Origin: Candidatus Kapaibacterium sp.
GTDB lineage: Bacteria > Bacteroidota > Ignavibacteria > Kapaibacteriales > UBA4661
Direction of reading: 5' to 3'
Length of the DNA: 48,894 nucleotides
Assembly: GCA_025055035.1 (NCBI GenBank)
Contig: JANWZB010000005.1
Location: 1-48,894 of the forward strand
Shown here: piece by piece, positions 6,032-32,752 of the stretch
How the letters are laid out: every line of letters starts with the position of its first letter
Numbering within the stretch: the stretch's first letter is position 1
Program-made: the position numbers and the translations under genes
Notes under the pieces: model-generated
What the model was told of the DNA's origin: nothing
Seen by the model: the letters and a program-made list of their open reading frames with translations, nothing else
The model's database searches: none

Positions 6032-6039
6032 CAGTGCGT

Positions 6040-7089
6040 ATGCAAGAACATGTTTCCACAGTAGCAGTACAGCCGTATAAAGCACTTGCATTGCAGCTAA
6101 CATGCCATGCTATCAATGCATGTAGCAATCGTGCGCAGGCACAAGAAGTGATCTCGGCAACGATTGAACGCTTAGGAAAGCAAATTCGAGCATCGAAAGG
6201 ATTTCTTGGGCATGATGTGCGTCTTGTTGTGCTTCCAGAATACTGCTTGACAGGATTCCCTATAAACGAAAGCATCGAAGAGTGGCGCAATAAAGCAGCT
6301 CTTGACCCGAATGGGAAAGAGTATGATACATTAGGAGCTATAGCTCAGCAGAACACCGTGTTCCTTGCTGGAAATGTCTATGAAACCGATCAGCATTTCC
6401 CAGACCTGTATTTCCAAACAAGCTTTGTTATCAATCCTGCTGGGAACGTCGTATTGCGGTATCGGCGTCTTATCTCGATGTTTGCTCCAACACCCCATGA
6501 TGTGTGGGAACGATACTGCGAGGTGTATGGTTTAGAAGCAGTGTTTCCTGTAGCACGCACAGAGATCGGTGCTTTGGCGTGTATCGCTAGCGAAGAAATA
6601 CTGTACCCTGAAATTGCGCGCTGCCATGTTATGCGTGGTGCAGAAGTTTTTCTACATTCGTCGAGCGAAATTAGTAGTCCTTTGCTGACACACAAGAATG
6701 TTGCAAAGCTTGCTCGGGCTATTGAAAATCTTGCATATGTCGTGTCAGCAAACTCTGCTGGGATTATCGGTACTGACATACCTTGTGCATCGGTTGATGG
6801 AGGCTCTAAGGTCGTAGATTATCGCGGAATAGTGCTTGCGGAAGCAGGTACAGGCGAAAGTATGGTAGCATCAGCAACGATTGATATTGAAGCGCTTCGT
6901 CGCGAGCGCCGACGCGTTGGTATGGCGAATATTCTAGCTCGGCAGCGATTCGAGCTGTTTGCTGCATCGTATGCCCAGCATAGCTTCTATCCAGCAAATA
7001 CACTGCTTGGGAAACAGGCCGATAGAGCACACTTTGTGCGAGTGCAGCAAGAAACGATTGAAACGCTTGCAAAAGCTGGTATCATTTAG
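6040..7089 (+). CDS. Nitrilase-superfamily carbon-nitrogen hydrolase (amidase-like), variant triad
   Basis: A 349-residue member of the carbon-nitrogen hydrolase superfamily, which uses a Glu-Lys-Cys triad to hydrolyse amides, nitriles or carbamoyl groups. The glutamate is in VVLPEYCLTGFP (E67) and the nucleophile in GALACIASEEILYPEIAR (C181). The position normally occupied by lysine (YRK) reads YRR, so the third member is R143. The start at ATG 6040 lies 8 bases after the MFS stop; an upstream in-frame ATG at 5971 would overlap the MFS gene by 61 bases and add a cysteine-rich tail unlike the family. In this operon a likely job is removing ammonia from an amide made by ring opening, which is inferred from context only. 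Confidence 0.8.
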   Translation: MQEHVSTVAVQPYKALALQLTCHAINACSNRAQAQEVISATIERLGKQIRASKGFLGHDVRLVVLPEYCLTGFPINESIEEWRNKAALDPNGKEYDTLGAIAQQNTVFLAGNVYETDQHFPDLYFQTSFVINPAGNVVLRYRRLISMFAPTPHDVWERYCEVYGLEAVFPVARTEIGALACIASEEILYPEIARCHVMRGAEVFLHSSSEISSPLLTHKNVAKLARAIENLAYVVSANSAGIIGTDIPCASVDGGSKVVDYRGIVLAEAGTGESMVASATIDIEALRRERRRVGMANILARQRFELFAASYAQHSFYPANTLLGKQADRAHFVRVQQETIETLAKAGII

Positions 7090-7200: not shown

Positions 7201-8409
7201 ATGGACGCTAGAACTGTATCACCGTCTGTTCCGCCTGTATGGAGCACCATCGCAACACACGGCGTATTCCCTGAAGCAAAGCATGATGAAATTGCTCGCT
7301 ATAACTTTTTAGCGAACCTGAACAAGTATTTATCGACTGTTGTTGCTCCGGGAAACCGTATCGCTTATGAAAAGCGTGTTCGGCCGCGCTTCCGTGCCGA
7401 GCATGGACGGGATTTTCAGAATCGCGATGAAGTGCGCAAAGCAATGAAACAAGATCCATACTACCAAATGTGGAGTGCGCTACGGCGCACAACTATGGAA
7501 ATGCGCCAGCAAAATGGGCGGAGCATCACGATTCGCCAAGCTCCTGAACTCGCCGAAAAAGCTGCAAAGCTTAATGAAGGCAAAGAAACTCTCGTGCTGA
7601 ATCCGTCGGTCAAGGTTCCACACTATCTGACAGTGATGGACAATCACTGTATGCCGGGTAGTTATCATACTGAACTCTTCGAGGGCGACGTTTCGGCAGC
7701 AGCAAACTATGATACTGGGCTTTTTGTAACAACAGCCGGTGGCTTAGGAAGACTCTCCGATGGGGGCGGCAAGGCAATCGCACAATGGGTGCTATCGCAG
7801 TATCCTGAGTTTAAGCCAAAGCGTATCCTCGATATAGGCTGCGGGCTAGGACACAATACGCTGCCATTGGCACAAGCATTCCCCGATGCCGAAGTTATTG
7901 GAATTGACGTTGGTGCACCAATGCTGCGCTATGGTCATGCACGAGCGCAGTCGCTTGGTGTGCGGAATGTGAAGTTCATACAAGCGGATGCTGCACAAAC
8001 AGGCTTCCCCGACGAGTCATTCGACTGGATACAAACAACTATGTTCCTGCATGAGACGTCGTTTCTGGCGATTCACCGCATTATGCAAGAGATTTATCGT
8101 ATGCTGAAACGTAACGGCTTAACACTTCATATCGAGCAGCCACAATACACACCCGATATGGACTTGTTCGAACAAACGATGCGCGACTGGGATGCATTCT
8201 ACAATAACGAGCCATTTTGGGGTGTTATGCATGATCTTGATCCTGCTGCACTTATGGAACAAAGTGGGTTCGATAGAAAAGAGTTCTTTCAAATCGGTGT
8301 ACGTGCAGTCAATGACCTCGAGGACTTCACCAAGCCGCGCCAGCAGCCAGAGGCCGAAGATTATGGTCGCGCGGCAGTGTGGAACGTCTTTGGAGCATGG
8401 AAACGTTAG
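7201..8409 (+). CDS. Class I SAM-dependent methyltransferase with long N-terminal extension
   Basis: A 402-residue protein whose residues 190-345 form a class I methyltransferase: motif I is ILDIGCGLGHNTL, the acidic residue after strand 2 is in VIGIDVGAP, and a post-I segment IQADAAQTGFPDESFDWI follows. The N-terminal 180 residues form an extra domain, unusual for simple small-molecule methyltransferases, with a helical segment YYQMWSALRRTTMEMRQ and a YLTVMDNHCMPGSYH stretch. A 111-base gap separates it from the amidase gene, the largest gap so far in this arm, and could hold an internal promoter, although I see no strong one. Its acceptor is unknown. A methyltransferase in a degradative cluster may act on the carbon skeleton or transfer a methyl group from the substrate. 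Confidence 0.75.
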   Translation: MDARTVSPSVPPVWSTIATHGVFPEAKHDEIARYNFLANLNKYLSTVVAPGNRIAYEKRVRPRFRAEHGRDFQNRDEVRKAMKQDPYYQMWSALRRTTMEMRQQNGRSITIRQAPELAEKAAKLNEGKETLVLNPSVKVPHYLTVMDNHCMPGSYHTELFEGDVSAAANYDTGLFVTTAGGLGRLSDGGGKAIAQWVLSQYPEFKPKRILDIGCGLGHNTLPLAQAFPDAEVIGIDVGAPMLRYGHARAQSLGVRNVKFIQADAAQTGFPDESFDWIQTTMFLHETSFLAIHRIMQEIYRMLKRNGLTLHIEQPQYTPDMDLFEQTMRDWDAFYNNEPFWGVMHDLDPAALMEQSGFDRKEFFQIGVRAVNDLEDFTKPRQQPEAEDYGRAAVWNVFGAWKR

Positions 8410-8492: not shown

Positions 8493-8855
8493 ATGCGAGA
8501 ACTGAATGTCATTGCTCTTGCAAATGCGAAAAGTAAAGGGAAACGCCCATACTTTTTCGATGATCCAGCAGTTGAGCGCGTACTTGCTATTACGATGGCT
8601 GTAGCTGGAGAGCTCGCCGTAGTGCACGAGCGTCTAGATACGATAGAGCGGTTGCTGGAAAGTAAAGGTACACTGAGCCGCGCCGAAATTGAGGCGTATC
8701 GTCCGGATGCTCAAGCTGCCGAGGAACGCCAGCACTGGCATGCTGAATATATTGCACGGATACTGCGCATTGTCCAGCAGGAATTAGAAGCACTGCAGCA
8801 TCCAGAAGCAAACCGTGATTTGGAGGAAATTGCAGAAGAACTGAGTAGAACATGA
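8493..8855 (+). CDS. Small helical protein of unknown function
   Basis: I do not recognise this 120-residue protein with confidence. It opens with a polar stretch ending in PYFFDDPAVERVLA, then is almost wholly helical and charged, with a heptad-like run LAVVHERLDTIERLLESKG and a second helix YIARILRIVQQELEALQ that suggest a short coiled coil or helical bundle. There is no signal peptide and no cysteine. It is co-directional with its neighbours and sits between the methyltransferase and a SnoaL-like protein. It could be a small accessory subunit of one of the flanking enzymes. Confidence 0.65.
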   Translation: MRELNVIALANAKSKGKRPYFFDDPAVERVLAITMAVAGELAVVHERLDTIERLLESKGTLSRAEIEAYRPDAQAAEERQHWHAEYIARILRIVQQELEALQHPEANRDLEEIAEELSRT

Positions 8856-8885
8856 TGTCGATGTGTTTTGACTAATCGGACAACT

Positions 8886-9320
8886 ATGCACAAGCAGTAC
8901 AGCCCACAAGAAAGCATTGATGCGTTCTATAACGCTATTATCCAGAAAAATGTCGAACGCATTGTCGCCTCCTACGTGCAATCGCCGGCAACGTACGTAT
9001 TTGTTGAAGGTCCGAGGTATGCAACGCAGGGCATTGATAGAATTGCTCAAGGTTGGAAAGACTTCTGTGCTGCGCCTCTATCATTGCAGAGTATTACATG
9101 GGTAGAACAGCCACAGTGCGAGGAGCACGGAAATATAGCATGGATAGCTGGTCTTATTAAACTACGTGTAGAAGTGCAAGGAAGAAGTGTCGAGCAAACC
9201 TTCCGTGCGACATTTGTTCTGCACAAAAGCGATGAAGGATTCTGGAAAATTCGTCAAGAGCATGTTTCTGCTCCATTGCCAGATCCTTATGGTATTGGGG
9301 ATTGGCTGAAACCTGCCTAG
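8886..9320 (+). CDS. SnoaL/NTF2-like fold protein
   Basis: A 144-residue protein with the cone-like NTF2/SnoaL fold. The first helix is SPQESIDAFYNAIIQKNVERIV, followed by strands such as YVFVEGPRYATQGIDRIAQGW, which matches the pattern of DUF4440/SnoaL proteins, and ending with FWKIRQEHVS. Members include small isomerases, cyclases, dehydratases and ligand-binding proteins, so the exact reaction cannot be assigned. ATG 8886 is preferred over an in-frame TTG at 8868 because the fold begins immediately after it. The gene starts 30 bases after the preceding small gene and precedes the CoA-transferase by 63 bases. Confidence 0.72.
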   Translation: MHKQYSPQESIDAFYNAIIQKNVERIVASYVQSPATYVFVEGPRYATQGIDRIAQGWKDFCAAPLSLQSITWVEQPQCEEHGNIAWIAGLIKLRVEVQGRSVEQTFRATFVLHKSDEGFWKIRQEHVSAPLPDPYGIGDWLKPA

Positions 9321-9383: not shown

Positions 9384-10586
9384 ATGGACAGCATACATAC
9401 CTCATCGGGAAAGGCACCGCTCAAGGGTATTGTTGTTCTAGAGTTTGCACATGCGGTTATGGGTCCTGCGTGCGGGCTCTTGCTTGCTGACATGGGTGCA
9501 GACGTTATACACATTGAGCCACCTGAAGGCGATTCTACACGCCGCCTGCGAGGATTCGGCACAGGGTATTTCTCGTTCTACAACCGTAATAAGCGTAGTC
9601 TTGCTCTAGACATCAAGTCCGAGCAGGGCAAGTATATTGTTGAGCAGCTTGTACAGCATGCCGACGTACTCATAGAGAACTTCGGACCCGGTACGATGGA
9701 TAGACTCGGATACGGCTATGAAGCACTAGCTGCAAAGAATCCACGCGTAATTTACTGCTCTCTGAAAGGCTTTTTGTCAGGTCCTTATGAACGCCGTCAT
9801 GCAATGGACGAAGTTGTTCAGATGATGGGAGGCTTAGCATATATGACAGGACCGGTTGGGATGCCCTTACGTGCTGGAACGTCGGTAGTAGATATTACTG
9901 GAGGGATGTTTGGCGTCATTGGTATACTGGCAGCATTGTACGAACGCGAGCATACAGGGAAAGGGCAGTACATAAAGTCCGCATTATTTGAGACAACAGC
10001 ATTTCTTATGGGACAGCATATGGCATATAGTGCTATAACGCAAGAGCCAGTACCGCCAATGCCAGCGAGAGTGAGTGCGTGGTCGGTATACCGCGTGTTT
10101 GAGACCCGTGATAACGAAACAGTGTTTATCGGAATTATCAGTGAGAAGCACTGGGAGCGATTTTGCAGAGCATTTGCGCGCGAAGATTGGTTGAACGATC
10201 CACGCTTGGCAACAAACAACGACCGTATTGCTCAGCGAGCGTGGTTTCTACCTGCTGTAGAGGATATGATACGCAGTATGACAAAAGCAGAGGTTATACG
10301 CCGCTGCGAAGAAGCTGAGATTGCATTTGCTCCAATTGCTCGCCCTGAAGATTTATTTGATGATGTGCAGCTAAATCAGGGGGGAAGCTTGCTCACAACG
10401 ACGCTTCCTGACGGTACAGTAACAAAACTGCCGACACTTCCGTTAGAAATGGACTACACGAGGTTTGGATTGCGCAGGAACCCTCCGCAGATTGGTGAGC
10501 ACACGCGAGAAATTTTACAGGAGTGCGGGCTAAGTGATAAATTCATAGCGAAGCTGTCAGAACAGGGAGTTATTGGAGGATTATAG
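9384..10586 (+). CDS. Class III (CaiB/BaiF) CoA-transferase
   Basis: A 400-residue family III CoA-transferase. These proteins move CoA from a donor such as succinyl-CoA to a carboxylic acid via an aspartyl-CoA thioester, as interlocked dimers. Family signatures include GIVVLEFAHAVMGPACGLLLADMGADVIHIEPP-like N-terminal architecture (residues 14-47), NRNKRSLALD, a MDEVVQMMGGLAYMTG segment (141-156) and a GKGQYIKSALFETTAF segment (193-207). In the last one, the residue aligned with the catalytic aspartate is glutamate (E203). It ends 4 bases before the start of the first hydratase subunit, so CoA activation and hydration are translationally linked. It could feed the HMG-CoA-lyase-like enzyme at the operon head. 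Confidence 0.88.
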   Translation: MDSIHTSSGKAPLKGIVVLEFAHAVMGPACGLLLADMGADVIHIEPPEGDSTRRLRGFGTGYFSFYNRNKRSLALDIKSEQGKYIVEQLVQHADVLIENFGPGTMDRLGYGYEALAAKNPRVIYCSLKGFLSGPYERRHAMDEVVQMMGGLAYMTGPVGMPLRAGTSVVDITGGMFGVIGILAALYEREHTGKGQYIKSALFETTAFLMGQHMAYSAITQEPVPPMPARVSAWSVYRVFETRDNETVFIGIISEKHWERFCRAFAREDWLNDPRLATNNDRIAQRAWFLPAVEDMIRSMTKAEVIRRCEEAEIAFAPIARPEDLFDDVQLNQGGSLLTTTLPDGTVTKLPTLPLEMDYTRFGLRRNPPQIGEHTREILQECGLSDKFIAKLSEQGVIGGL

Positions 10587-10590
10587 AGCT

Positions 10591-11844
10591 ATGGGACAAA
10601 CTATCAGCGAGAAAATTCTGTCTGCTCACGCTGGATACCCAGTATATCAGGGTGAGATTGCGGTGGTGCATGTTGATGGAATTATGGCAACAGATACAAC
10701 TGCACCGTATGCTATTACAGCATTCCGTGAGATAGTTGGAAAGAGCGGACGCAAGGTGTGGAATCCTAGCCGCTGTGCGCTGGTGATTGATCATGCTGCA
10801 CCAGCACCAACAGAGAAGATTAGCAATTTGCACGTTATGATGCGCGAATTTGCGCGCGAACAGGGGTGTCCGCTCTATGATGTCGGAAGCGGAATATGTC
10901 ATCAAATCATGGTCGAAGAAGCATTTGTGCGTCCGGGAGATGTGTTCGTGGGTGCAGATTCTCATACTTGTACATATGGTGGGCTGGGGGCATTTGCTAC
11001 AGGAGTAGGATCAACTGACCTTGCAGCAGTGATGCTGACAGGAAAAATTTGGCTTAAAGTGCCACAAACGATAAGAATTGAGTATACTGGAACACTGCCC
11101 AAGGGCGTTACTGCTAAAGACCTTGTGTTGTTCACTGTCGGTCAGCTCTCGATTTCAGGAGCAACATACCAAGCAATTGAGTACTGTGGCTCTGCGCTGG
11201 AGACGCTCTCGCTATCAAGCCGTATGACTATTGCAAATATGTCGGCAGAGATGGGTGCAAAAACTGGGATTGTGCACCCAACAGGATTGACATTGGAATT
11301 CGGACTTCGGTACGATTGGACACCAGTGCTGCCAGATGAAGATGCAGAGTATGTTCGGCGGTACAGCTTTGATGTCTCAGCACTTCAACCCCAAGTTGCT
11401 GTACCACACTCACCTGATAACGTCAAAGATATACGAGAAGTCGAGGGTACGAAGATTACCTATGCATTCATCGGTTCATGTGTGAATGCTCGACTTGAGG
11501 ATTTACAGCAAGCAGCTCATATTCTGCGTGGACGGCATATTCATCCGAATGTTCGGTTGCTTATTACTCCCGCTTCAAAAAATGTAATGCTTGCGGCAGT
11601 GCAAGATGGTACAATGCAAACGCTACTCGAAGCTGGAGCAACTATGACAAATGCCGCTTGTGGTGCGTGTGTTGGTGCGCATCTTGGGATTCCGGGCGAC
11701 GGCGAGGTTGTTATCTCAACAGCAAATCGGAATTTCAAGGGGCGTATGGGCAACCCAAATGCTCAAATTTATCTTAGCTCAGCAGCGGTGGTCGCTGCTT
11801 CGGCACTGACAGGTGCTATTACACATCCTGCGGAATTCTTATAA
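10591..11844 (+). CDS. Aconitase-superfamily hydratase large subunit 1 (LeuC/DmdA-like)
   Basis: A 417-residue large subunit of a two-chain [4Fe-4S] hydro-lyase of the 3-isopropylmalate dehydratase / homoaconitase / dimethylmaleate hydratase group. The three cluster cysteines are intact: GSCVNARLED (C297) and AACGACVGAHLG (C357, C360). The substrate-side motif GADSHTCTYGGLGAF is also present. Length matches the short archaeal-type LeuC branch. ATG 10591 has a GGAGG motif (10575-10579) 11 bases upstream, overlapping the end of the CoA-transferase gene. Leucine synthesis is unlikely because no leuA or leuB is nearby and a second divergent pair follows. A substituted maleate/malate substrate is inferred from the enclosing pathway. 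Confidence 0.88.
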   Translation: MGQTISEKILSAHAGYPVYQGEIAVVHVDGIMATDTTAPYAITAFREIVGKSGRKVWNPSRCALVIDHAAPAPTEKISNLHVMMREFAREQGCPLYDVGSGICHQIMVEEAFVRPGDVFVGADSHTCTYGGLGAFATGVGSTDLAAVMLTGKIWLKVPQTIRIEYTGTLPKGVTAKDLVLFTVGQLSISGATYQAIEYCGSALETLSLSSRMTIANMSAEMGAKTGIVHPTGLTLEFGLRYDWTPVLPDEDAEYVRRYSFDVSALQPQVAVPHSPDNVKDIREVEGTKITYAFIGSCVNARLEDLQQAAHILRGRHIHPNVRLLITPASKNVMLAAVQDGTMQTLLEAGATMTNAACGACVGAHLGIPGDGEVVISTANRNFKGRMGNPNAQIYLSSAAVVAASALTGAITHPAEFL

Positions 11845-11860
11845 TACTCCCGACGACGCT

Positions 11861-12379
11861 ATGGATTCTCATGCTTGTATTCGTGCCTCGGCGTATGTGT
11901 ACGAAGGTGCTCTTGGCGACAATATTGATACTGACCGTATCATCCCAGGCAAGTACACGAAGACTTTGGATATTTCGCTCCTTGCATCGCATGTGATGGA
12001 AGACCTCGATCCAGAGTTTCGGTATCGCTTTATTCCCGGCAGTATTCTTGTGGCTGGTGATAATTTCGGATGCGGTTCATCGCGCGAGCAAGCCCCTATT
12101 GCACTCAAAGCAGCTGGTGTGTCTGTCATTATTGCGCGGTATTTCGCTCGTATTTTCTTTCGCAATGCTATCAACATCGGATTGCCTGTTCTCGAAGTGC
12201 CACATCATGCGATTGCTCATGGCGCAATACTTGAAGTCCACCTACGTGAGGGAACAGTAACTGATATAAGCGCGGGAGTTGTGTACAAAGCTACACGAAT
12301 GCCTAAAGTGATGGTTGACATACTTGCTGAAGGAGGCTTAGTGCCCTATCTTCAGAAGTACGGTGATTACGTCCTGTAA
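11861..12379 (+). CDS. Aconitase-superfamily hydratase small subunit 1 (LeuD/DmdB-like)
   Basis: A 172-residue swivelling-domain subunit that pairs with the preceding large subunit. It shows the classical features: GDNIDTDRIIPGKY near residues 17-30, FIPGSILVAGDNFGCGSSRE near 48-70 (the substrate-carboxylate binding Ser-Arg), and ARIFFRNAINIGLPVLE. I placed the start at ATG 11861, 16 bases after the LeuC-like stop; an in-frame GTG at 11813 would overlap the large subunit by 32 bases. The intact GSSRE motif indicates a normal dicarboxylate-binding site, in contrast with the second small subunit at 14966-15505. Confidence 0.88.
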   Translation: MDSHACIRASAYVYEGALGDNIDTDRIIPGKYTKTLDISLLASHVMEDLDPEFRYRFIPGSILVAGDNFGCGSSREQAPIALKAAGVSVIIARYFARIFFRNAINIGLPVLEVPHHAIAHGAILEVHLREGTVTDISAGVVYKATRMPKVMVDILAEGGLVPYLQKYGDYVL

Positions 12380-12436
12380 TGCAGGAATATACAAATCCAA
12401 TTACATACAATACGACAATCTAGAACAATACGCATA

Positions 12437-13090
12437 ATGCTACAGTACTTTCTATGCTTGACAGTAACCTGTATAATGTCGGCAACTGCAGTGCGAGCGC
12501 AACGAGAGACACCTATGAAGCCAATTGAACTATTCAAGCAGTATATTCAGGGCGATTTAGACAATCGTGAGCAGATAGAAGAAGAGCGTCGAGCAGGAAA
12601 GCAGATTCACCCGTATGCGAAACATGTGAATCGCCTAGCCGACGACAAAATTCTGAACAAACCAGCACACTATCAAGGATTCTATATTCTGGAAGAAAGT
12701 TACTATGTGTATCCCGACAAGCCGAATGATACCATTATCAAGCCGTATCTCTTTTGGTTCACAGAAGAGAATGGCGCTGTGAAGCTGCATTCCCTGCAAA
12801 TTCCCAAGGATATTCCTGTGCATGAGATTCGGAATGATAACCCTACATTGCGCTTCGACTATAACGCTCTTCGATTATCCCCCACATTCAAGCCTGCGTG
12901 TTATACCTTCAACGAAGCAAGTCAAAGTTTTTATATCAAAGCAGTCAATGAATTTCCGGGCGGCAGCTTTACGCTGGAAGAGACAATTGCCAACGATAGC
13001 TTTAGCGTCATGGAGCTGCTTATCAAGGACGGTAAGCAAATCACGCCATACTCAATGCCAATTATTTACAAGAGAATAAACAAGCGATAG
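12437..13090 (+). CDS. Exported protein, possible remote CpcT/CpeT-like fold
   Basis: A 217-residue protein beginning with a hydrophobic leader (residues 1-21, ending AVRAQ) that looks like a Sec signal peptide, so it is probably periplasmic. After it, ELFKQYIQGDLDNREQIEEE resembles the N-terminal motif of CpcT/CpeT proteins and is similar to ITGEFDNFQQVWKERE in the clear CpeT-like protein of this locus (30150-31190). A following FYILEESYY...PYLFWFTEENG pattern also matches in spacing. The second half is divergent, so I give this only as a possible remote homologue; otherwise it is an unknown secreted protein. It lies between the two hydratase operon segments. Confidence 0.55.
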   Translation: MLQYFLCLTVTCIMSATAVRAQRETPMKPIELFKQYIQGDLDNREQIEEERRAGKQIHPYAKHVNRLADDKILNKPAHYQGFYILEESYYVYPDKPNDTIIKPYLFWFTEENGAVKLHSLQIPKDIPVHEIRNDNPTLRFDYNALRLSPTFKPACYTFNEASQSFYIKAVNEFPGGSFTLEETIANDSFSVMELLIKDGKQITPYSMPIIYKRINKR

Positions 13091-13149
13091 CATAGTTTCG
13101 CACCATTACCATATACATACAACACAATCTTTCATGTGGAGGTTATACT

Positions 13150-13575
13150 ATGGCGCTTACAGTGTTTCCAAAGCATACGGGGGTCTGGGAAGGGACCTAC
13201 ACTCGCATTAACGCTCAAGGCGAGGTTATCGATAAACATAGAAGCCGCTTGACACTGGCGCTCAACGGCAGGGAGTGGACGCAGACAAATGAGTACATCT
13301 GGGACAATGGAAAGCGCGAGTTTCATGATTTTGGCGTTTCCTACTTCGACGATAATGACCGCCTGCAGTTCGACAATCATCGCATTAAGGGAGAGGCATG
13401 GGAATCCTCGAACGATATCATCAATTTGTACTGGACGTACAAAGAAGAGCCCGGAACGCTGCTCTTTGAGATTATCACACTACTTGGCGATGGTCATCGT
13501 ATGCGGACGTGGCAGCATAGCCGCAATGGCAAATTCGAGGGCTTGACCATGATTGAGGAACGACGTGTAGCCTGA
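13150..13575 (+). CDS. Small calycin/lipocalin-like protein (DUF3598-like)
   Basis: A 141-residue, beta-rich soluble protein. The opening FPKHTGVWEGTYTRI and the alternation of short strands (RSRLTLAL, REWTQTNEYIW, REFHDFGVSYF, DDNDRLQFD, IINLYWTYK) fit an eight-stranded calycin barrel. They recall the DUF3598 family, which shares its fold with CpcS/CpeS bilin lyases of cyanobacteria. The family assignment is from memory of the pattern and is moderate. Calycins usually bind small hydrophobic or pigment-like ligands. An AGGAGG-poor but purine-rich leader (tggaggtt, 13137-13144) precedes ATG 13150 by 5 bases, a usable ribosome site. Confidence 0.55.
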   Translation: MALTVFPKHTGVWEGTYTRINAQGEVIDKHRSRLTLALNGREWTQTNEYIWDNGKREFHDFGVSYFDDNDRLQFDNHRIKGEAWESSNDIINLYWTYKEEPGTLLFEIITLLGDGHRMRTWQHSRNGKFEGLTMIEERRVA

Positions 13576-13663
13576 GCACGTGCACATAAAGTGTGTTTAC
13601 AGGAGGTGTTCTCACAATTCTACCATAACACAAAGCATTCAATTACGACACAAAGAAAGCCTT

Positions 13664-14932
13664 ATGTCTGGAATGACCATCACAGAAAAAATTATGGCTC
13701 TTCGCAGCGGGCGCGACAGAGTGCGACCGGGAGAGCTTGTATGGGCAAATGTCCATACGGTTATGACGATGGATTATTTGGGAAAGCAAACATTTGCTGC
13801 ACTGCATGAGCTAGGAGTGCATGAAGTCTTTGACCGAGACCGCGTCATTTGTGTGTCCGATCACCTAGTGCCCCCGCCTACGCCACAGTTTGCGACGATG
13901 CTCAATGAGTGGCGTGAACTTGTGAAACAGCATTCTATCACGTACTTCTACGACTTAGGTAAGCAAGGCATTGCGCATCAAATCATGGTTGAGCAAGGGC
14001 ATGTTGTTCCGGGAACGGTTAGTATCGGGACAGATTCACATGCCAATACCTACGGGGCAGTAGGAGCGGTAGGCAATGCCGTCAGTGTCAGCGATGCTGC
14101 GGTAGCGATGGCAATTGGTAAGTGCTGGTTTCGTGTACCAGAGTCTGTGAAGTTCTATGTTACAGGCACATGGCAGCCGTATGTGATGGCGAAAGACTTG
14201 TCGTTGCACATTATGGGCATGATGCACTGGAATGGTCATCTTATTTACAAGGCTCTTGAATTTGAAGGACCTGCTATTACTGCGCTTGATATGGCGGGGC
14301 GTATGACCCTGTGTAACATGACTGTGGACTTAGGAGCGAAAAATGGCATCATCGCCCCCGACCATGTAACACAAGCATACTTGCATGGGCGTGCAAAAAC
14401 TGATTGGAGCATGATTGCAAGCGACTCTGACGCAGAATATGAGGCAGTGTATGAAATCGATGTTACGAATATCGGACCAATGGTTGCCCGACCGGATAAG
14501 CTCGACGATGTTGTGCCGATTGAGCATGTGAAAGGTACAAAGTTCAATAAAGCTTTCGTAGGGACATGCACCAATGGTCGCCTTGAGGATATTGCAGTGC
14601 TCGCGCACATTTTGCAGGGCAAGCACGTCCATCCAGACGTCAATGTTCTTCTTGTTCCGGCAAGCCAGCAGGTATATCTCGATGCGCTCAAGGCGGGATA
14701 TATCACGACACTTGTGGAGGCAGGCGTTGCTGTTGATACACCCAGCTGCGCTGCGTGTGCTGGGATTCATACGGGTGTGGCTGGTGATGGTGATGTTATC
14801 TTGAGTGCTGGAAATCGCAATATGAAGGGGCGCATGGGAAGCAAGAATGCACAAATCTATCTTTCTTCGCCAGCTGTTGTGGCAGCATCAGCGCTCAAAG
14901 GTGTTATTGCTGACCCTCGTGAGCTGTCGTAA
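13664..14932 (+). CDS. Aconitase-superfamily hydratase large subunit 2 (divergent LeuC-like)
   Basis: A 422-residue large subunit of a second two-chain [4Fe-4S] hydro-lyase. Cluster cysteines are conserved in GTCTNGRLED (C302) and SCAACAGIHTG (C362, C365). The active-site loop GTDSHANTYGAVGAVGNAV differs strongly from the first copy, arguing for another substrate rather than a recent duplication. ATG 13664 begins the conserved MTITEKIMA region; an AGGAGGTG stretch at 13602-13609 is too far upstream (more than 50 bases) to serve this start and has no partner ATG. It is followed after 33 bases by its small subunit. Confidence 0.87.
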   Translation: MSGMTITEKIMALRSGRDRVRPGELVWANVHTVMTMDYLGKQTFAALHELGVHEVFDRDRVICVSDHLVPPPTPQFATMLNEWRELVKQHSITYFYDLGKQGIAHQIMVEQGHVVPGTVSIGTDSHANTYGAVGAVGNAVSVSDAAVAMAIGKCWFRVPESVKFYVTGTWQPYVMAKDLSLHIMGMMHWNGHLIYKALEFEGPAITALDMAGRMTLCNMTVDLGAKNGIIAPDHVTQAYLHGRAKTDWSMIASDSDAEYEAVYEIDVTNIGPMVARPDKLDDVVPIEHVKGTKFNKAFVGTCTNGRLEDIAVLAHILQGKHVHPDVNVLLVPASQQVYLDALKAGYITTLVEAGVAVDTPSCAACAGIHTGVAGDGDVILSAGNRNMKGRMGSKNAQIYLSSPAVVAASALKGVIADPRELS

Positions 14933-14965
14933 TAAATCTATACTGACTATACGGAAGGAGCTCGT

Positions 14966-15505
14966 ATGATTCAACCTCTGCGTGGCATAGCATGGGCATC
15001 GGAAAAGTACGTGTATGCGTTTGACATTATTGTGCAGAGATTCTGGACCAGCCCGATTGATCCAGTAGAAAATGCAAAGTGGGTGATGGCAGGAGTTGAT
15101 GAAGAATTCAATAAGGAAAATGGCTTCAGAGACAAAGGCTATACATTTATCGTGGCAGGGCATAATTTTGCTGGCGGTGGTAAAAGTATTGAGCATGTCG
15201 TTACAGGACTTATGGGCGCAGGAATCAAAGCGGTATTCGCTGACTCATTCTCGCGCTTGCAATTTCGCAATGCAACGAACTATGGCTTGCCATTTATCAC
15301 ATGCAAGGGACTTGTTCAGCATGTTAAGACAGGCGATGAGCTTGAGTTTGACCCAAGCACTGGTCTTATAAAGAACATAACAACAGGCTTCGAAGCGCAA
15401 GCACTGCCTGTTGCACCGTTTGTCGCAGAAATTGCAGCAGCAGGCGGGCTGATGCAGTTTATCAAGAACAAAATTGCTGATGGTACAGTACATGAATTGC
15501 GGTAG
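14966..15505 (+). CDS. Aconitase-superfamily hydratase small subunit 2, divergent swivel domain
   Basis: A 179-residue partner of the second large subunit, clearly related to LeuD by GYTFIVAGHNFAGGGKS and LQFRNATNYGLPFI, but with substrate-site motifs altered. The usual GDNIDTD is replaced by KYVYAFDIIVQRF, and the GSSRE substrate-binding signature reads GGGKSIE. Such changes remove the standard serine-arginine pair, so the enzyme probably handles a substrate with a different side group, or uses the lysine instead. A good Shine-Dalgarno (ggaaggag, 14953-14960) precedes ATG 14966. It is linked to the aldolase gene by 37 bases. Confidence 0.82.
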   Translation: MIQPLRGIAWASEKYVYAFDIIVQRFWTSPIDPVENAKWVMAGVDEEFNKENGFRDKGYTFIVAGHNFAGGGKSIEHVVTGLMGAGIKAVFADSFSRLQFRNATNYGLPFITCKGLVQHVKTGDELEFDPSTGLIKNITTGFEAQALPVAPFVAEIAAAGGLMQFIKNKIADGTVHELR

Positions 15506-15542: not shown

Positions 15543-16295
15543 ATGCGAGAGAACACAGTCCGAACGCGATTGTCTGAGGGAAAACCAGTCTTTGGTGTCA
15601 TTTCGCCAACTATTGACCCCATCATTGTGGAGTATATTGGTCTTGTAGGTTTTGATTTCTATATGCTTGATGGCGAGCATGGAGCGCTTTCGCCTGCGCA
15701 TGCTGAGCATATGGTACGTGCCGCTGAAAGTATAGATATTACGCCTCTTGCACGAGTACGTAGCCTCGACGAAAAACTCATTTTGCAGTTTCTGGATACT
15801 GGTATTATGGGCATTATGATGCCCGGTTGCACAACAGCAGACGACTGTGCAGCGCTTGTGCGAGCAGTCAAATATCCACCAGTAGGAGAGCGTGGTATCG
15901 GTCCTGTGCGTGCTGCACGCTACATGCTGGGTGGGATGTCCCAACAAGAGTATATCCGCCATGCAAACAACCAAACGCTAGTACTGCCACAGATTGAAGA
16001 TATCACAGCACTCGATCATCTCGAAGAAATGTGCCACGTTGAGGGCGTTGATGGATTTATTATCGGACCGCGTGACCTCGCTGTAACTATGGGCTTCTAC
16101 GACAGTCCGTCGCATGAAGAAGTGAGAAAGGTGATTGACCAGATTATCGAGATTGTGGTGCGCCACAACCGCATTGTTGGCACTGTTGCCGCAACAAAAG
16201 AGCAGGCTCATGCCTTGGTGGACAAGGGTGTACGCATGATTCTTCATTCTGTGGCTGGACTTATCAGCCAGTCAGCAAAGGCGTTTTTATCGTAG
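15543..16295 (+). CDS. HpcH/HpaI-family aldolase
   Basis: A 250-residue class II aldolase/lyase of the HpcH/HpaI family, which cleaves 4-hydroxy-2-oxo acids to pyruvate and an aldehyde and is related to CitE-type lyases. Landmarks are DGEHG (catalytic H46), ARV (R71, pyruvate binding) and the metal ligands E152 in PQIED and D178 in IGPRDLA. All are intact and the length is typical. Placed directly after the second hydratase pair, it probably performs a C-C cleavage of a hydrated intermediate. Its usual chemistry forms pyruvate, which would enter central metabolism. The exact substrate is not evident. Confidence 0.87.
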   Translation: MRENTVRTRLSEGKPVFGVISPTIDPIIVEYIGLVGFDFYMLDGEHGALSPAHAEHMVRAAESIDITPLARVRSLDEKLILQFLDTGIMGIMMPGCTTADDCAALVRAVKYPPVGERGIGPVRAARYMLGGMSQQEYIRHANNQTLVLPQIEDITALDHLEEMCHVEGVDGFIIGPRDLAVTMGFYDSPSHEEVRKVIDQIIEIVVRHNRIVGTVAATKEQAHALVDKGVRMILHSVAGLISQSAKAFLS

Positions 16296-16351: not shown

Positions 16352-16663
16352 ATGCCCAAAATTATTGTTCTCTTTAACCTAAAGAGCGGCGTTGATCCCG
16401 CTGAGTATGAATCGTGGGCACGGACTTCAGATGTGCCTACCGTGAATGCACTTGATTCTGTGCGTGATTTCCATGTGCTCAAGGCGTTGTCTGTTCTTGG
16501 CTCCGACGCTGCACCACCGTATAAGTATATTGAGGTAATTGATGTCGAGAACATGGAGCAATTCCTTGCTGATATCACTACTGAAGCCATCCAAAAAGGT
16601 GCTGCACAATTTGCGCAGTATGCTGATAATCCTGTGTTCATCGTTACCGAACATTGTGCATGA
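16352..16663 (+). CDS. HapK/RedY-like small protein
   Basis: A 103-residue dimeric alpha-beta barrel type protein. The opening PKIIVLFNLKSGVDPAEYESWA, the SVRDFHVLKA strand and the PYKYIEVIDVENMEQFL segment resemble the REDY-like protein HapK from the prodigiosin cluster of Hahella and RedY of the undecylprodigiosin cluster. The assignment rests on recalled sequence pattern and needs a profile search. Its role in those clusters is linked to pyrrole-containing metabolites, which is suggestive here. The stop (16661-16663) lies 8 bases before the SDR start, so the two are translationally coupled. Confidence 0.62.
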   Translation: MPKIIVLFNLKSGVDPAEYESWARTSDVPTVNALDSVRDFHVLKALSVLGSDAAPPYKYIEVIDVENMEQFLADITTEAIQKGAAQFAQYADNPVFIVTEHCA

Positions 16664-16671
16664 GGTGAAAA

Positions 16672-17523
16672 ATGGGTATGTATCAACTTGAAGGGAAAAC
16701 GGCTATTGTTACCGGCTCAGGCAGAGCGGGTGGTATTGGAGCAGCAATTATCAAGCGGTTTGCTGCTGAAGGGTGCAATGTGGTTGTTTCCGACCTTGGC
16801 ACTTCAGCAGGAGAAAACTTTCCAGATTCTGCTATTGGCTCAACGCAAGAGATGGAGAGGATTGCCGAAGAATGTCGCTCGTATGGTGTACAAGCATTAA
16901 CTATTCCATGCGATGTACGCAAGGAAGCAGATGTCACGCGCCTTGTAGAGCAAGCAGTGAAGGCATTCGGGACAGTTGATATTTTTGTCAATAATGCTGG
17001 AGTGGGGTATTTGATGCAGCTTGTAACGGAGATGGAAGAGGAAAAATGGTCGGCGGTGATGGATGTTAATGTGAAAGGGTATTTTTTTGGCATTAAGCAC
17101 GCTGGCAGGCAAATGATTGCACAGGCAGAGTCAGGGCGTAGAGGTGGGCGCATTATCAACATTGGCTCGCAGGCGTCCAAGTCGGGCTTCCCGTTTGCAG
17201 CTGCCTACACTGCGTCCAAACATGCAGTTGTTGGTTTAACGCGCTCTGCAGCCATTGAACTTGGAAAGTACGGTATCACGGTGAACACTGTATGCCCGAA
17301 TCATATCACTACTGGCTTGGGCGCATGGCAGAACGAGTTCTTTGCAGAAAAATTAGGGCTGACGCTTGAACAATATATGGCACGCATGAAGGCAAACATT
17401 CCGCTTGGACGCACTGGTCTCACGCAAGATATTGCAAAAGCTTGTGCCTTTCTTGCTTCAGCTGAGGCTGAATATATTACCGGCGAAGCGATGAATGTCA
17501 GTGGCGGCGAGGAAATGCACTAA
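16672..17523 (+). CDS. Short-chain dehydrogenase/reductase
   Basis: A 283-residue classical SDR that oxidises or reduces a hydroxyl/carbonyl with NAD(P). The cofactor motif is TGSGRAGGIG (residues 14-23), with NNAG at 107-110, catalytic S166 and YTASK (Y179, K183). Aspartate at the end of the second strand (SDLGT) suggests NAD preference. The C-terminus ends with the normal YITGEAMNVSGG. It follows the HapK-like gene at 8 bases, with a gaggtgaaaa leader. It probably oxidises a hydroxy acid made by one of the hydratases; this is inferred from neighbours. Confidence 0.87.
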   Translation: MGMYQLEGKTAIVTGSGRAGGIGAAIIKRFAAEGCNVVVSDLGTSAGENFPDSAIGSTQEMERIAEECRSYGVQALTIPCDVRKEADVTRLVEQAVKAFGTVDIFVNNAGVGYLMQLVTEMEEEKWSAVMDVNVKGYFFGIKHAGRQMIAQAESGRRGGRIINIGSQASKSGFPFAAAYTASKHAVVGLTRSAAIELGKYGITVNTVCPNHITTGLGAWQNEFFAEKLGLTLEQYMARMKANIPLGRTGLTQDIAKACAFLASAEAEYITGEAMNVSGGEEMH

Positions 17524-17552: not shown

Positions 17553-19649
17553 ATGCGATACAGACTTGGTGTTGATATTGGTGGCACGTTTACAGATTTT
17601 GTGTTGCTCGACGAAGCACAGGCACGACTAGTGTTTGGAAAAACGCTCACCACCTATCCAGACCCAACCGACGGTATTATTGTGGGAACACGATCCCTAC
17701 TGAGAGATTGCGGAATTGAAGCGCGAGATATTCACACGATTGTGCATGGTACAACACTAGTCACAAATGCAGTCATTGAACGTAAAGGTGCTCCGACGGG
17801 GTTTATTACAACAGAAGGATTTACTGATGTGCCAGAGATTGGTCGTGAACTGCGCTACGACATCTACGATATTTTTCTTGTTATGCCAGAACCACTAGTA
17901 TCGAAGAAGTATCGTGTTGGTGTACACGAGCGTATACTTGCTTCGGGTGAGGTGTTGAAGCAGCTTTCACGCGACGACGCTCGTACAGCAGTGCAGAAGC
18001 TTGTTCAGCGTGGTGTTAAGTCTGTAGCAGTGTCGCTACTGCACTCATTTATGAATCCTAGCCACGAACGCTTAATAGGCGAGGTTATTCGTGAAGAGTT
18101 CCCTCACCTGTACGTGTCGCTGTCGGTAGATATCATGCCAGAGATACGGGAATACGAACGGTCATCGGCAACAATCATGAATGCCTACGTGCAGCCAATT
18201 ACGGATAGATATTTACAGGTGCTAGAGCAACGCCTACAGGAGTTGGGGTTCGAGGGGAAGATTCACATTATGATTTCAAGTGGGCGGCTAACGACAGTTC
18301 AAGGTGCACGTAAAGCTCCTATTCAGCTCTTAGAGTCGGGTCCGGCGGGAGGGGCGATGGCAGGTGTCTTTTTTAGTAGTCTGACTCAGCACCGTGATAT
18401 GCTCTGCTTCGACATGGGAGGCACGACGGCAAAAGCCTCGTTGATTGTGAACGGTGCACCAGAAATCACGCATCAGTTTGAGGCAGCGCGAGTGCGGCGC
18501 TTTAAGAAAGGAAGTGGATTGCCGGTGAGGATTCCCGTCATTGACTTGATTGAAATTGGTGCTGGGGGCGGTTCAATTGCCTATATTGATAAACTTGGTT
18601 TGTTGAAGGTAGGACCTGAAAGTGCCGCATCGCAGCCAGGACCTGCATGTTACGGACGTGGGGGGCAAAAGCCCACTGTTACCGATGCAGACTTGATTTT
18701 AGGGTATTTAAATGAAGAATACTTCTTAGGTGGCACAATGAGGCTGAGTCGTGAAGCTGCATACGAAGCTGTGCAGCGTCATATCGCTGCTCCGTTGGGA
18801 ATTTCTGTAGAGCAAGCAGCAATGGGTATTCGTCGTGTTGTTGATGAAAACATGGCAAATGCTGCGCGAGTACATATTATTGAAAGAGGTTTCGATCCAC
18901 GCCGCTTCCCGATGATGGCATTCGGTGGTGCTGGTCCCGTTCATGCGTTTAGTGTTGCACGCTTATTAGGTGTGTCGCGCATCATCATACCAGTTGGAGC
19001 GGGCGTCACATCAGCACTAGGCTTTCTGGTATCACCTGTTGCTTCTGAGGCAACACGGTCGTATGTTAAACCACTTGATGAAATAGACTGGGAGCAACTC
19101 AACGCTATGCTCTACGAGATGGAACAGGAAGGATTCGCATTTTTGCGCCATGCCGATGCCGATGTATCGCAAGCAACTGTGAGGCGAGTAGCAGATATGC
19201 GATACGTCGGACAGGGGCATGAAATAACAGTGCCTATGCCGCTTGGTCAACTGTCGGAACAATCTATACCTGCCATTACTTCAGCGTTTCTACAAGAGTA
19301 CGAGTTCCGCTACAACCGTACTGTGCCGGGAATGCGCCTAGAGATTGTTACATGGCGTGTTGCCGTTAGTGCAGCTGCCCCGAAGATTCTGCCGTCGCAG
19401 CATGGGACGAATGGTGTTGCAAGCAAAACATCATACACACAGCGCCTTGTGTGGTTCGAGGGCAATGCAGCTCCGACAATGGCAGATGTGTACCGACGCT
19501 ATGACCTTGTCCAAGGAGTTGTATATACTGCTCCGGCAATCATCGAAGAAAAAGAATCAACGACTGTTATCGGCCAACACGCTCGGTTCAGTGTTGATGA
19601 GCACAAGAATATCGTGATAGACATGTACTATCCAGAAGGTTCTGTATGA
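17553..19649 (+). CDS. hyuA: Hydantoinase/oxoprolinase subunit A
   Basis: A 698-residue HyuA-type subunit of the ATP-dependent hydantoinase/5-oxoprolinase/acetone-carboxylase superfamily. It has the ASKHA-type phosphate-binding motif GVDIGGTFTDFVLLD near the N-terminus, VHGTTLVTNAVIERKGA, the LESGPAGGAMAG segment, a second phosphate loop CFDMGGTTAKASL and the GAGGGSIAYID / GPACYGRGG region. These enzymes phosphorylate a lactam or carbonyl oxygen and, with subunit B, open cyclic amides or carboxylate ketones. No acetone-carboxylase gamma subunit is nearby, so ring hydrolysis is more likely. The last four bases overlap the hyuB start (ATGA). Confidence 0.88.
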   Translation: MRYRLGVDIGGTFTDFVLLDEAQARLVFGKTLTTYPDPTDGIIVGTRSLLRDCGIEARDIHTIVHGTTLVTNAVIERKGAPTGFITTEGFTDVPEIGRELRYDIYDIFLVMPEPLVSKKYRVGVHERILASGEVLKQLSRDDARTAVQKLVQRGVKSVAVSLLHSFMNPSHERLIGEVIREEFPHLYVSLSVDIMPEIREYERSSATIMNAYVQPITDRYLQVLEQRLQELGFEGKIHIMISSGRLTTVQGARKAPIQLLESGPAGGAMAGVFFSSLTQHRDMLCFDMGGTTAKASLIVNGAPEITHQFEAARVRRFKKGSGLPVRIPVIDLIEIGAGGGSIAYIDKLGLLKVGPESAASQPGPACYGRGGQKPTVTDADLILGYLNEEYFLGGTMRLSREAAYEAVQRHIAAPLGISVEQAAMGIRRVVDENMANAARVHIIERGFDPRRFPMMAFGGAGPVHAFSVARLLGVSRIIIPVGAGVTSALGFLVSPVASEATRSYVKPLDEIDWEQLNAMLYEMEQEGFAFLRHADADVSQATVRRVADMRYVGQGHEITVPMPLGQLSEQSIPAITSAFLQEYEFRYNRTVPGMRLEIVTWRVAVSAAAPKILPSQHGTNGVASKTSYTQRLVWFEGNAAPTMADVYRRYDLVQGVVYTAPAIIEEKESTTVIGQHARFSVDEHKNIVIDMYYPEGSV

Positions 19650-21211
19650 AACAGCGCTTTGATGCAATTACGCTCAGTATTGTGTGGTCTCGCCTTATAG
19701 CAATTGTTGATGAAGCAGGAACAACATTGCAACGCACGGCATTTTCGACGGTAACGCGTGAGTCGAATGACTTTGCTGTTGTGTTGATGGATGCATATGG
19801 GCGCTCGATTGCTCAGTCAAGCATTAGTGTCCCATCATTTTTGGGAGTATTACCAATGCTGACAAAAGTGCTTTTGGAGCGCTACTTCCCGCCAAACTCA
19901 TGGCGAGAGGGCGATACGGTTATTACCAACGATCCATGGCTGTGTGCTGGGCATAAGCCAGATATAGGCTTAGTATCACCTATTATGAGGAATGGTGCAC
20001 TTATTGGGTTCATTGGGACGATTGCCCATTCACCCGACATAGGGGGCACGCTATGGGGGGCAGGCGGTCGAGATTTATACGAGGAAGGATTGATGATTCC
20101 ACCCACAAAGCTTATTGACGCAGGGAAGGAGAACACTGTATTACTGGACATTATCGAAGCAAATGTTCGTGCACCAAAGCAAACAATTGGAGATATTCGT
20201 GCTCAACTTGCTGCAAATGAGCAAGGAACGCGTGCGCTATTACGTCTTATGGATGAGATGAACATAGACGATATACAGGGAATTGCTGAGCAAGTGATCG
20301 AAGCAAGCGAACGAGCAATGCGCGAAGCAATCATGGCAGCACCGAATGGTACATATCGCTATGAGTATGATGCTGATGGCGATGGGCTAGATGAACCAGT
20401 ACGTATCTGCTGCACTGTGACAATTGCCGATGATGAGATTATTGTTGATTACGAGGGAACATCACCGGCGCATCGGCTTGGCATTAACGCGGTTTTAAAC
20501 TATACCTATGCGTATACAGCGTATCCGATAAAATGTGTATTTAGCCCTGATGTGCCAAATAATGAAGGTTCATTCCGCCCTATTCATGTTACTGCGCCAC
20601 AGGGTTCATTACTCAATGCTCAGAAACCATCGCCTCTTGGCGCACGGAATATTACAGGCAATATTCTTCATGCAGCAGTATTTGGAGCGCTAGCGCAAGC
20701 TGTGCCGAATCAGGTACAAGCTGACTGTGGTTCAGCATGTTGGTGCGTTGTATTGAATGGATACGATGCACGGAGAAACCGAGAATATGTCGAGTATTTC
20801 TTCCTGAACGGTGGATATGGAGCGCGCCCAACAATGGACGGCATTCCCACACTAAGCTTTCCGACAAATGTTGCAAACGTGCCAGTTGAAGTACTGGAAA
20901 ATAGCGCACCAATTCTTGTAACAGAAAAATCTCTGCGTAGAAATTCGGGCGGCAATGGTGCATATAAGGGTGGTATGGGGCAGAAGTTTGCGTTCAAGAA
21001 TATTAGCCATGAACCTATCAATATTTCTCTGCTCACAGAAAAGACGAAGACAGTAGCACGCGGCTTGAATGGCGGCGGTGATGGCAAACGAGGACGAGTG
21101 TATATCAAGCCAAAACGTTATATCGCTCCAAAAGGACTTGATAAGCTGTATCCTAATGAAGAACTGGTACTAGAGCTTCCAGGCGGTGGAGGGTTTGGCG
21201 TGCCAGATTAG
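19646..21211 (+). CDS. hyuB: Hydantoinase/oxoprolinase subunit B
   Basis: A 521-residue HyuB-type subunit. Recognisable segments are the N-terminal SRLIAIVDEAGTTLQRTAFS, NDPWLCAGHKPDIGLV, IAHSPDIGGT and GAGGRDLYEEGL, a central GTSPAHRLGINAVLNYT and the C-terminal ELPGGGGFGVP typical of the family. With HyuA it would form the ATP-dependent enzyme that opens a five-membered lactam or hydantoin-like ring. Sequence alone cannot separate 5-oxoprolinase, N-methylhydantoinase, caprolactamase or a new specificity. ATG 19646 overlaps the hyuA stop. Confidence 0.88.
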   Translation: MKQRFDAITLSIVWSRLIAIVDEAGTTLQRTAFSTVTRESNDFAVVLMDAYGRSIAQSSISVPSFLGVLPMLTKVLLERYFPPNSWREGDTVITNDPWLCAGHKPDIGLVSPIMRNGALIGFIGTIAHSPDIGGTLWGAGGRDLYEEGLMIPPTKLIDAGKENTVLLDIIEANVRAPKQTIGDIRAQLAANEQGTRALLRLMDEMNIDDIQGIAEQVIEASERAMREAIMAAPNGTYRYEYDADGDGLDEPVRICCTVTIADDEIIVDYEGTSPAHRLGINAVLNYTYAYTAYPIKCVFSPDVPNNEGSFRPIHVTAPQGSLLNAQKPSPLGARNITGNILHAAVFGALAQAVPNQVQADCGSACWCVVLNGYDARRNREYVEYFFLNGGYGARPTMDGIPTLSFPTNVANVPVEVLENSAPILVTEKSLRRNSGGNGAYKGGMGQKFAFKNISHEPINISLLTEKTKTVARGLNGGGDGKRGRVYIKPKRYIAPKGLDKLYPNEELVLELPGGGGFGVPD

Positions 21212-25591: not shown

Positions 25592-25641
25592 AGCGACGAT
25601 AACGAGCGGTGTGAAACATACGGAATTGTGATTGAAGAAGC

Positions 25642-25675
25642 CAAGCCCCCTTGATATGCATTTCAAGGGGGCTTG
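25642..25675 (-). terminator. Perfect 13-bp hairpin between susD and the DUF1838 gene
   Basis: Arms 25642-25654 and 25663-25675 are exact reverse complements (CAAGCCCCCTTGA on the plus strand), with an 8-base loop. In the minus direction the hairpin is followed by a modest pyrimidine-rich stretch (GGCTTCTTC), not a run of T, so it may be a partial terminator or an RNA-stabilising stem for the susC-susD message. It would let the two downstream genes be expressed at a lower level. Confidence 0.6.
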
Positions 25676-25693
25676 ATGCTCGAGGATGTGCAC

Positions 25694-26983: not shown

Positions 26984-27026
26984 GGCAATCAAGAAATGAG
27001 GTGAGACAATGCAAAGTACAGACGAA

Positions 27027-32626: not shown

Positions 32627-32752
32627 GCTAGAGCAATCGTTGCTAAGAGTAAAAACAAAACATAACAACACACAGACAGATGTAGCATCAATAGGTGCGA
32701 GTATGCTGCTGTGAAGAGCAGCGCATGTATACGGTAGTGCTGTGTAAAGGTG

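Follow-up and report, generated by a model that had tools for sequence, protein, structure and literature searches.

A 48,894-nucleotide stretch of Candidatus Kapaibacterium sp. (contig JANWZB010000005.1, positions 1 to 48,894; hereafter the window) was found to encode two LeuC/LeuD-type pairs of the aconitase superfamily between positions 10591 and 15505. The small subunit of the second pair, LeuD2, has lost both the catalytic serine and the substrate-binding arginine of the superfamily, while its large-subunit partner keeps the [4Fe-4S] ligands. Both pairs lie within a conserved, previously undescribed gene cluster that looks built to open ring-shaped amides. The reading favored here, which is given about an even chance, is that the pairs are two [4Fe-4S] hydro-lyases of one pathway acting on different substituted maleate- or malate-type intermediates from opened cyclic imides or lactams, the raw material most likely being a linear tetrapyrrole (bilin) or maleimide fragments derived from one. 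The four subunits are encoded as follows.

10591-11844, + strand: LeuC1, large subunit of pair 1; PF00330; NF001614 at 560 bits (cut-off 385); aconitase superfamily, [4Fe-4S] ligands intact.
11861-12379, + strand: LeuD1, small subunit of pair 1, likely starting at ATG 11861; TIGR02087 at 184.2 bits (cut-off 108.95).
13664-14932, + strand: LeuC2, large subunit of pair 2, likely starting at ATG 13664; PF00330; NF001614 at 507 bits (cut-off 385).
14966-15505, + strand: LeuD2, small subunit of pair 2, in which HNFAGGGKSIEH replaces NFGCGSSREH; TIGR02087 at 87.9 bits (below the cut-off of 108.95); fold match 3vba.

A preliminary description of this DNA had reported both pairs with correct coordinates and motifs. 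Two further genes on the same strand (12437-13090 and 13150-13575) separate pair 1 from pair 2, and identity between the pairs is 44% and 35%. The pairs had also been assigned to one operon; this holds in the Kapaibacterium lineage only, where they stand close together on one strand, whereas elsewhere they form separate units, often on opposite strands. Each pair represents a distinct lineage, both are strongly constrained, and the Fe-S ligands are intact in both. The pairs very probably act on different intermediates, as had been proposed.

The altered loop of LeuD2 reads NFAGGGKSIEH where LeuD proteins have NF-GCGSSREH, with one extra residue between the anchors NF and EH. At the corresponding positions of mitochondrial aconitase, catalytic Ser642 is replaced by Lys, Ser643 remains Ser, and substrate-binding Arg644 is replaced by Ile; shifting the insertion to another place within the loop fails to regain GSSR. 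LeuD2 consequently departs from the superfamily in the catalytic Ser and Arg of the small-subunit GSSRE motif. The 12-residue motif was identical in all 41 sequences compared (the window and 40 further loci, every one from Bacteroidota), a uniformity that excludes both sequencing error and neutral drift and bears out the earlier reading of GGGKSIE in place of GSSRE. No displaced GSSR was detected elsewhere in LeuD2. Its only other Ser-Arg, within FSRLQFRNA, was considered as a displaced catalytic pair and rejected, being the ordinary SFARIFYRNA motif of LeuD proteins.

Other parts of LeuD2 are changed as well. At the expected DTDxII site it has (Y/M)A(F/Y)DII. The DTD motif, previously described as missing, is indeed gone, although its second Asp has an invariant Asp (D20) at most one residue away; the two coincide in one alignment with a one-residue gap and are not equated by the ungapped phmmer alignment. 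The recognition loop is the uncharged FWTSP, in which Trp27 and Thr28 are invariant. The AlphaFold model of LeuD2 has a clear fold (predicted local distance difference test score, pLDDT, 84.9) with 3vba as best match (Foldseek E 1.7e-16); the altered loop, modelled without the large subunit, has a pLDDT of about 72, and the model does not settle the base residue. No LeuD2 orthologues were detected on plasmids, where the best match had 38% identity.

GSSRE has been described as highly conserved in all isopropylmalate isomerase small subunits and related aconitases (PMC7308503). In the literature its serine is regarded as the general base across the superfamily and treated as universal. Even aconitase X (AcnX), the most deviant known branch and a superfamily precedent for a changed substrate and an active-site lysine, retains this serine, unlike LeuD2, and the corresponding AcnX serine mutant is almost inactive (PMC8184944). 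Because Lys and Ile replace the catalytic serine and the substrate arginine, pair 2 would have to use a different base, perhaps Lys73 or the neighbouring Ser74, and its substrate would need another kind of head group. An invariant exchange of this kind in an otherwise intact Fe-S enzyme offers a clean test case for a change of chemistry within the superfamily.

LeuC2 retains the three cluster cysteines (GTC..., CAAC), HQ, DSH and NRNxKGR including both active-site arginines, and thereby carries the large-subunit features of the superfamily (three cluster cysteines, DSH, NRN..GR). The preliminary description was right that all cluster cysteines remain. Its changed ADSH loop was not confirmed: the sequence is GTDSHANT, TDSH is the form found in mitochondrial aconitase, and D165, S166 and H167 are intact. 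A difference absent from that description is found at the E262 position, which is Asp (CNMTVDLGAK) and invariant in the five LeuC2 sequences compared. Mean pairwise identity is 79% for LeuC2 versus 69% for LeuC1. Since LeuC2 is the more conserved of the two and retains all cluster ligands, pair 2 is predicted to be an active enzyme; decay into a pseudo-enzyme was rejected on conservation. Loss of both the general-base serine and the substrate arginine, in a superfamily that otherwise keeps the serine, AcnX included (PMC8184944), could also mean that pair 2 is not a hydro-lyase and has another reaction or a regulatory or structural role, like the iron regulatory protein (IRP) among aconitases. 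This is considered distinctly unlikely for a pair that is unusually constrained, lies inside a catabolic operon, and keeps the LeuC2 cysteines, DSH, HQ and both active-site arginines.

Family assignments place both pairs outside the named biosynthetic enzymes. The large subunits pass the broad NCBIfam LeuC/HacA subfamily cut-offs and no equivalog cut-off. Specifically, the isopropylmalate isomerase equivalog LEU2 (cut-off 610.65) gave 447.7 for LeuC1 and 427.2 for LeuC2, and leud (cut-off 245.85) gave 182.2 for LeuD1 and 101 for LeuD2, while the homoaconitase equivalogs HacA_Meth (cut-off 550) and HacB2_Meth (cut-off 230) gave 454.8 and 398, and 175.1 and 82.1, respectively. The LeuD/DmdB subfamily model TIGR02087 is passed by LeuD1 and failed by LeuD2, and LeuC2 fails the Aconitase X family PF04412 (18.6 bits, cut-off 31.5). 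Maximum-likelihood trees were built from ten pair 1 and ten pair 2 sequences with a small reference set without DmdAB and maleate hydratase. For both subunits each pair formed one clade in 100% of bootstrap trees in the group test, and neither clade joined leu-operon LeuC or lys-operon HacA; pair 2 thus does not cluster with leu-operon isopropylmalate isomerases. Several outgroup branches were long, and the deeper order is unresolved in these trees.

No leu or lys genes were found near the pairs, either in the window or in the neighbourhoods of relatives. Elsewhere the host genome encodes two more aconitase-family proteins, one of 467 amino acids (LeuC type) and one of 815 amino acids (aconitase), which should make both pairs dispensable for leucine and for the tricarboxylic acid (TCA) cycle. 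Scores above the broad LeuC/HacA cut-offs would fit duplicates of an ordinary isopropylmalate isomerase or homoaconitase that work in amino-acid synthesis. Given the failure of all equivalog cut-offs, the separate clades, the lack of nearby leu or lys genes and the other LeuC-type and aconitase genes, such an origin is highly improbable, and roles of the pairs as leucine or TCA enzymes were rejected on equivalog scores, trees and the additional genomic copies.

The best PDB sequence match for all four window subunits is the Methanocaldococcus isopropylmalate/citramalate isomerase LeuCD (4kp1/4nqy, 3vba), which has the same heterodimer, fold and cluster ligands. It differs in that LeuD2 lacks GSSRE and DTD, LeuD1 has a Lys in the recognition loop, and the context in the window is catabolic, without leu genes. 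Homoaconitase HacAB (4kp2, 2pkp) shares with LeuD1 a basic residue at the recognition-arginine position and an intact GSSRE, whereas the window proteins have equivalog scores below cut-off, no lys operon and no grouping with Deinococcus HacA. Dimethylmaleate hydratase DmdAB works with dimethylmalate lyase in nicotinate fermentation. The likeness to that system lies in the proposed chemistry only, in which a dialkylmaleate would be hydrated and then cleaved in a retro-aldol step; in contrast, the partner lyases here are of the HMG-CoA-lyase (HMGL) and HpcH types, and LeuD2 is below the LeuD/DmdB cut-off.

Pair 1 has the standard motifs described earlier, with DNIDTDRIIP and NFGCGSSREQ in LeuD1, and carries the superfamily features throughout (three cluster cysteines, DSH, NRN..GR and GSSRE). 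The LeuD1 recognition loop, IIPGKYTKTLD, is invariant in 10 of 10 sequences (window included), and its Lys aligns with the Arg of YLRTT in Methanocaldococcus homoaconitase and with a Val in the isopropylmalate isomerase of that organism. Of the two small subunits, only LeuD1 has the basic loop residue of homoaconitases (YTKT versus YLRT). The recognition region itself is known from established work (cited in PMC7308503). Because the LeuD1 Lys stands at the homoaconitase Arg position, the pair 1 substrate may be expected to carry an additional carboxylate, e.g. as in hematinic acid.

The two pairs are part of an island of about 30 genes, no description of which was found in the literature searched. 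Its core operon has the order DUF3598 - LeuC2 - (amine-oxidase-like) - LeuD2 - HpcH - HapK - short-chain dehydrogenase (SDR) - HyuA - (flavin adenine dinucleotide (FAD) oxidoreductase) - HyuB - methyltransferase - 120-amino-acid protein - SnoaL, and was found in Saprospiraceae, Lewinella, Maribacter, Croceitalea, Muricauda, Aquimarina and Chitinophagaceae. Kapaibacterium has the same core genes in a partly rearranged order. The distance between pair 1 and pair 2 is 6-33 kb in 12 of 12 genomes tested, and HMGL and the CoA-transferase CaiB accompany pair 1 in all nine extended regions. Further members of the extended island are a TonB receptor (Pfam-tested), at least one DUF1838 protein, VOC proteins, an aldehyde dehydrogenase and a MarR regulator; some genomes add a 2-oxoacid dehydrogenase E1/E2 pair. 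LeuD2, DUF3598_N and CpeT are all missing from one congener (G275), so the island seems to come and go as a unit. In most flavobacterial loci (e.g. L062, L068 and L076), an amine-oxidase/desaturase-like FAD gene stands between LeuC2 and LeuD2. The window genes around the pairs are listed below; counts out of 40 refer to the 40 further loci.

1266-2207, + strand: HMG-CoA-lyase homologue (HMGL), proposed acyl-CoA lyase partner of pair 1; PRK05692 at 305 bits (cut-off 246); GGCPF loop; adjoins LeuC1 in relatives.
3188-4726, + strand: FAD-binding fumarate-reductase/flavocytochrome c-like oxidoreductase; PF00890; homologue between HyuA and HyuB in 25/40 loci.
5971-7089, + strand: carbon-nitrogen (CN) hydrolase, candidate amidase; PF00795, 1.7e-26; present in the cluster of relatives.
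7201-8409, + strand: S-adenosylmethionine-dependent methyltransferase of the core operon; PF13649; 34/40 loci.
8493-8855, + strand: conserved 120-amino-acid protein, no Pfam match; 32/40 loci.
8868-9320, + strand: SnoaL-like protein; PF13474; 32/40 loci.
9384-10586, + strand: family III (CaiB) CoA-transferase; PF02515, 1.8e-115; in the cluster of 9/9 extended regions.
12437-13090, + strand: conserved protein with probable signal peptide, distant CpeT relative; no Pfam match; profile-profile comparison with a CpeT alignment, probability 89.5, E 2e-6.
13150-13575, + strand: DUF3598_N beta-barrel protein; PF12204, 1.1e-9; model pLDDT 95.8, CpcS/CpeS bilin lyase-like fold.
15543-16295, + strand: HpcH/HpaI class II aldolase; PF03328; 39/40 loci.
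16352-16663, + strand: HapK/EthD-like dimeric barrel protein; PF11639, 3e-12; 36/40 loci.
16672-17523, + strand: SDR; PF13561; 36/40 loci.
17553-19649, + strand: HyuA, ATP-dependent lactam/hydantoin hydrolase subunit; PF01968/PF05378; nearest to caprolactamase alpha, NF050156 at 551 bits (below the cut-off of 1000).
19646-21211, + strand: HyuB; PF02538, 8e-148.
21346-22140, + strand: DUF1838 protein; PF08894, 3e-11.
22161-23600, + strand: aldehyde dehydrogenase; PF00171.
24686-25693, - strand: second DUF1838 protein; PF08894, 2e-74.
25694-30041, - strand: SusD-like and SusC-like outer-membrane uptake pair, read from sequence; homologues 68% and 79% identical in the same place in a relative (G283).
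30150-31190, - strand: CpeT/CpcT-family protein with probable signal peptide; PF06206, 4.7e-32, 111.8 bits (cut-off 21); in the cluster of relatives.
31232-32671, - strand: FAD amine-oxidase/desaturase-like protein; PF01593; homologue between LeuC2 and LeuD2 in many relatives.
33949-35484, - strand: cyclic amidohydrolase (hydantoinase/allantoinase type); NCBIfam matches all below equivalog cut-offs; PDB relatives; replaced by the PuuE type in other genomes.

Evidence for a ring-opening step comes from the hydrolases. Among 17 carrier genomes, the window-type amidohydrolase is present in six and a PuuE-like hydrolase (allantoinase-related) in 11, with no genome having both. Since two unrelated hydrolase families replace each other, opening of a cyclic amide or imide is taken to be a step of the pathway. 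The PuuE-like genes usually form a tandem pair, and an isochorismatase-fold amidase adjoins them in the five regions read. Furthermore, the closest match of HyuA is the ATP-dependent lactam hydrolase caprolactamase, at a score below the equivalog cut-off. In Aquimarina sp. RZ0 (locus L076), the second PuuE-like gene (G397:C182:62261-63124) contains one in-frame TAG.

The quartet of CaiB CoA-transferase, HMG-CoA lyase, LeuC and LeuD was also detected on plasmids of Haloferax and Peribacillus (L139, L144), where it has the look of a module, as yet without a name, for the catabolism of substituted malates. Recurrence of CaiB and HMGL beside LeuCD in these two genera supports a module that would hydrate a substrate, form its CoA ester and cleave it. 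The Peribacillus quartet adjoins an Asp/Glu racemase and a tartrate dehydrogenase.

The proposed bilin link derives from two protein families. Like the phycobiliprotein lyases CpeT/CpcT and CpcS/CpeS, the protein at 30150-31190 belongs to Pfam CpeT and the DUF3598 model has a CpcS/CpeS-like fold; Foldseek matches of the latter (2o62, 5yvf, 3bdr and 4tq2) indicate resemblance to Nostoc DUF3598, BFA1, CpcS and CpeS. Unlike those lyases, the window proteins are not beside phycobiliproteins and some have probable signal peptides; perhaps they bind bilins during uptake. DUF3598_N is present in exactly the five of 395 Bacteroidota genomes that have LeuD2, a coincidence of two sets of five with a chance probability of 1e-11 under an independence of genomes that does not hold. 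CpeT is present in 27 of the 395, all five LeuD2 carriers included. CpeT paralogues number as many as four in several flavobacterial carriers, and almost all of them lie on the contig that carries the cluster. Across 14 control genomes, CpeT and DUF3598_N both match only in a cyanobacterium. Maribacter algarum RZ26 (locus L081) and strain 4-528 (locus L084) were isolated from the red alga Gelidium. Within the island, CpeT and DUF1838 genes flank the SusC/SusD-like pair, which is encoded on the opposite strand and suggests that the substrate is taken up from outside.

Bilins contain two ring types, propionate-bearing and vinyl- or ethyl-bearing, and their oxidation yields hematinic acid and methyl-vinyl- or methyl-ethyl-maleimides. 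Opening the ring of hematinic acid gives a methylated homoaconitate, a compound that would fit the Lys-containing loop of LeuD1, and ethylmethylmaleate would fit the uncharged loop of LeuD2. The two ring types would be the simplest account of the two pairs.

Several observations weigh against a bilin substrate. The evidence for it consists of fold and gene company, and enzymatic activity, substrate and step order are predicted from the gene content, conservation, motif change and co-occurrence observed. BFA1 and nitrobindin are likewise similar to the DUF3598 model, 22 other Bacteroidota have CpeT but no LeuD2, and no CpeT was found in two of the 17 carrier genomes. Shared ancestry among the genomes inflates the co-occurrence statistics. 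No enzyme able to split a bilin into its single rings was identified, and literature searches on the catabolism of bilins or maleimides or on DUF1838 returned nothing of relevance. Green Ulva was where strain 4-528 reached its highest abundance, and collections from algae sample algae anyway, so support from habitat is weak; habitat details sought for the Kapaibacterium metagenome-assembled genome were not found. The same enzymology could instead serve a hydantoin, a pyrimidine-like compound, a glutarimide or another natural-product imide or lactam, given that the hydrolase families are those acting on allantoin, hydantoin, caprolactam and N-carbamoyl compounds and that CpeT and DUF3598 could bind other hydrophobic ligands. 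This is a possible but somewhat unlikely reading, which leaves unexplained the CpeT/DUF3598 bilin-lyase-like proteins and the strict coupling of LeuD2 to DUF3598_N.

For a route from cyclic imides by way of pair 1, the ring hydrolase (amidohydrolase or PuuE type) would yield a half-amide, from which an amidase (CN hydrolase or isochorismatase fold) would release a substituted maleate. LeuC1D1 would then convert the latter, by hydration or isomerisation, into a substituted malate with an extra carboxylate. Transfer of CoA by CaiB and cleavage of the HMG-lyase type would give an acyl-CoA and a 2-oxo acid. The other ring type would fall to pair 2, with HyuAB, the SDR and the HpcH aldolase as its partners. 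In its most specific form, which is advanced tentatively and with some doubt, the island would be a dedicated bacterial pathway in which linear tetrapyrroles, either phycobilins or other bilins, are mineralised as far as acyl-CoA and 2-oxo acids, with two paralogues for propionate- and ethyl/vinyl-bearing rings and with pair 2 as the first hydro-lyase of the superfamily to dispense with the catalytic serine. If bilins are indeed degraded, the island would supply genes behind the turnover of very abundant pigments of algae and cyanobacteria, and culturable strains of Maribacter and Aquimarina would allow this breakdown to be tested. DUF1838, a family of no known function with a single passing mention in the literature searched, may find a hint of its role in the company it keeps in this island.

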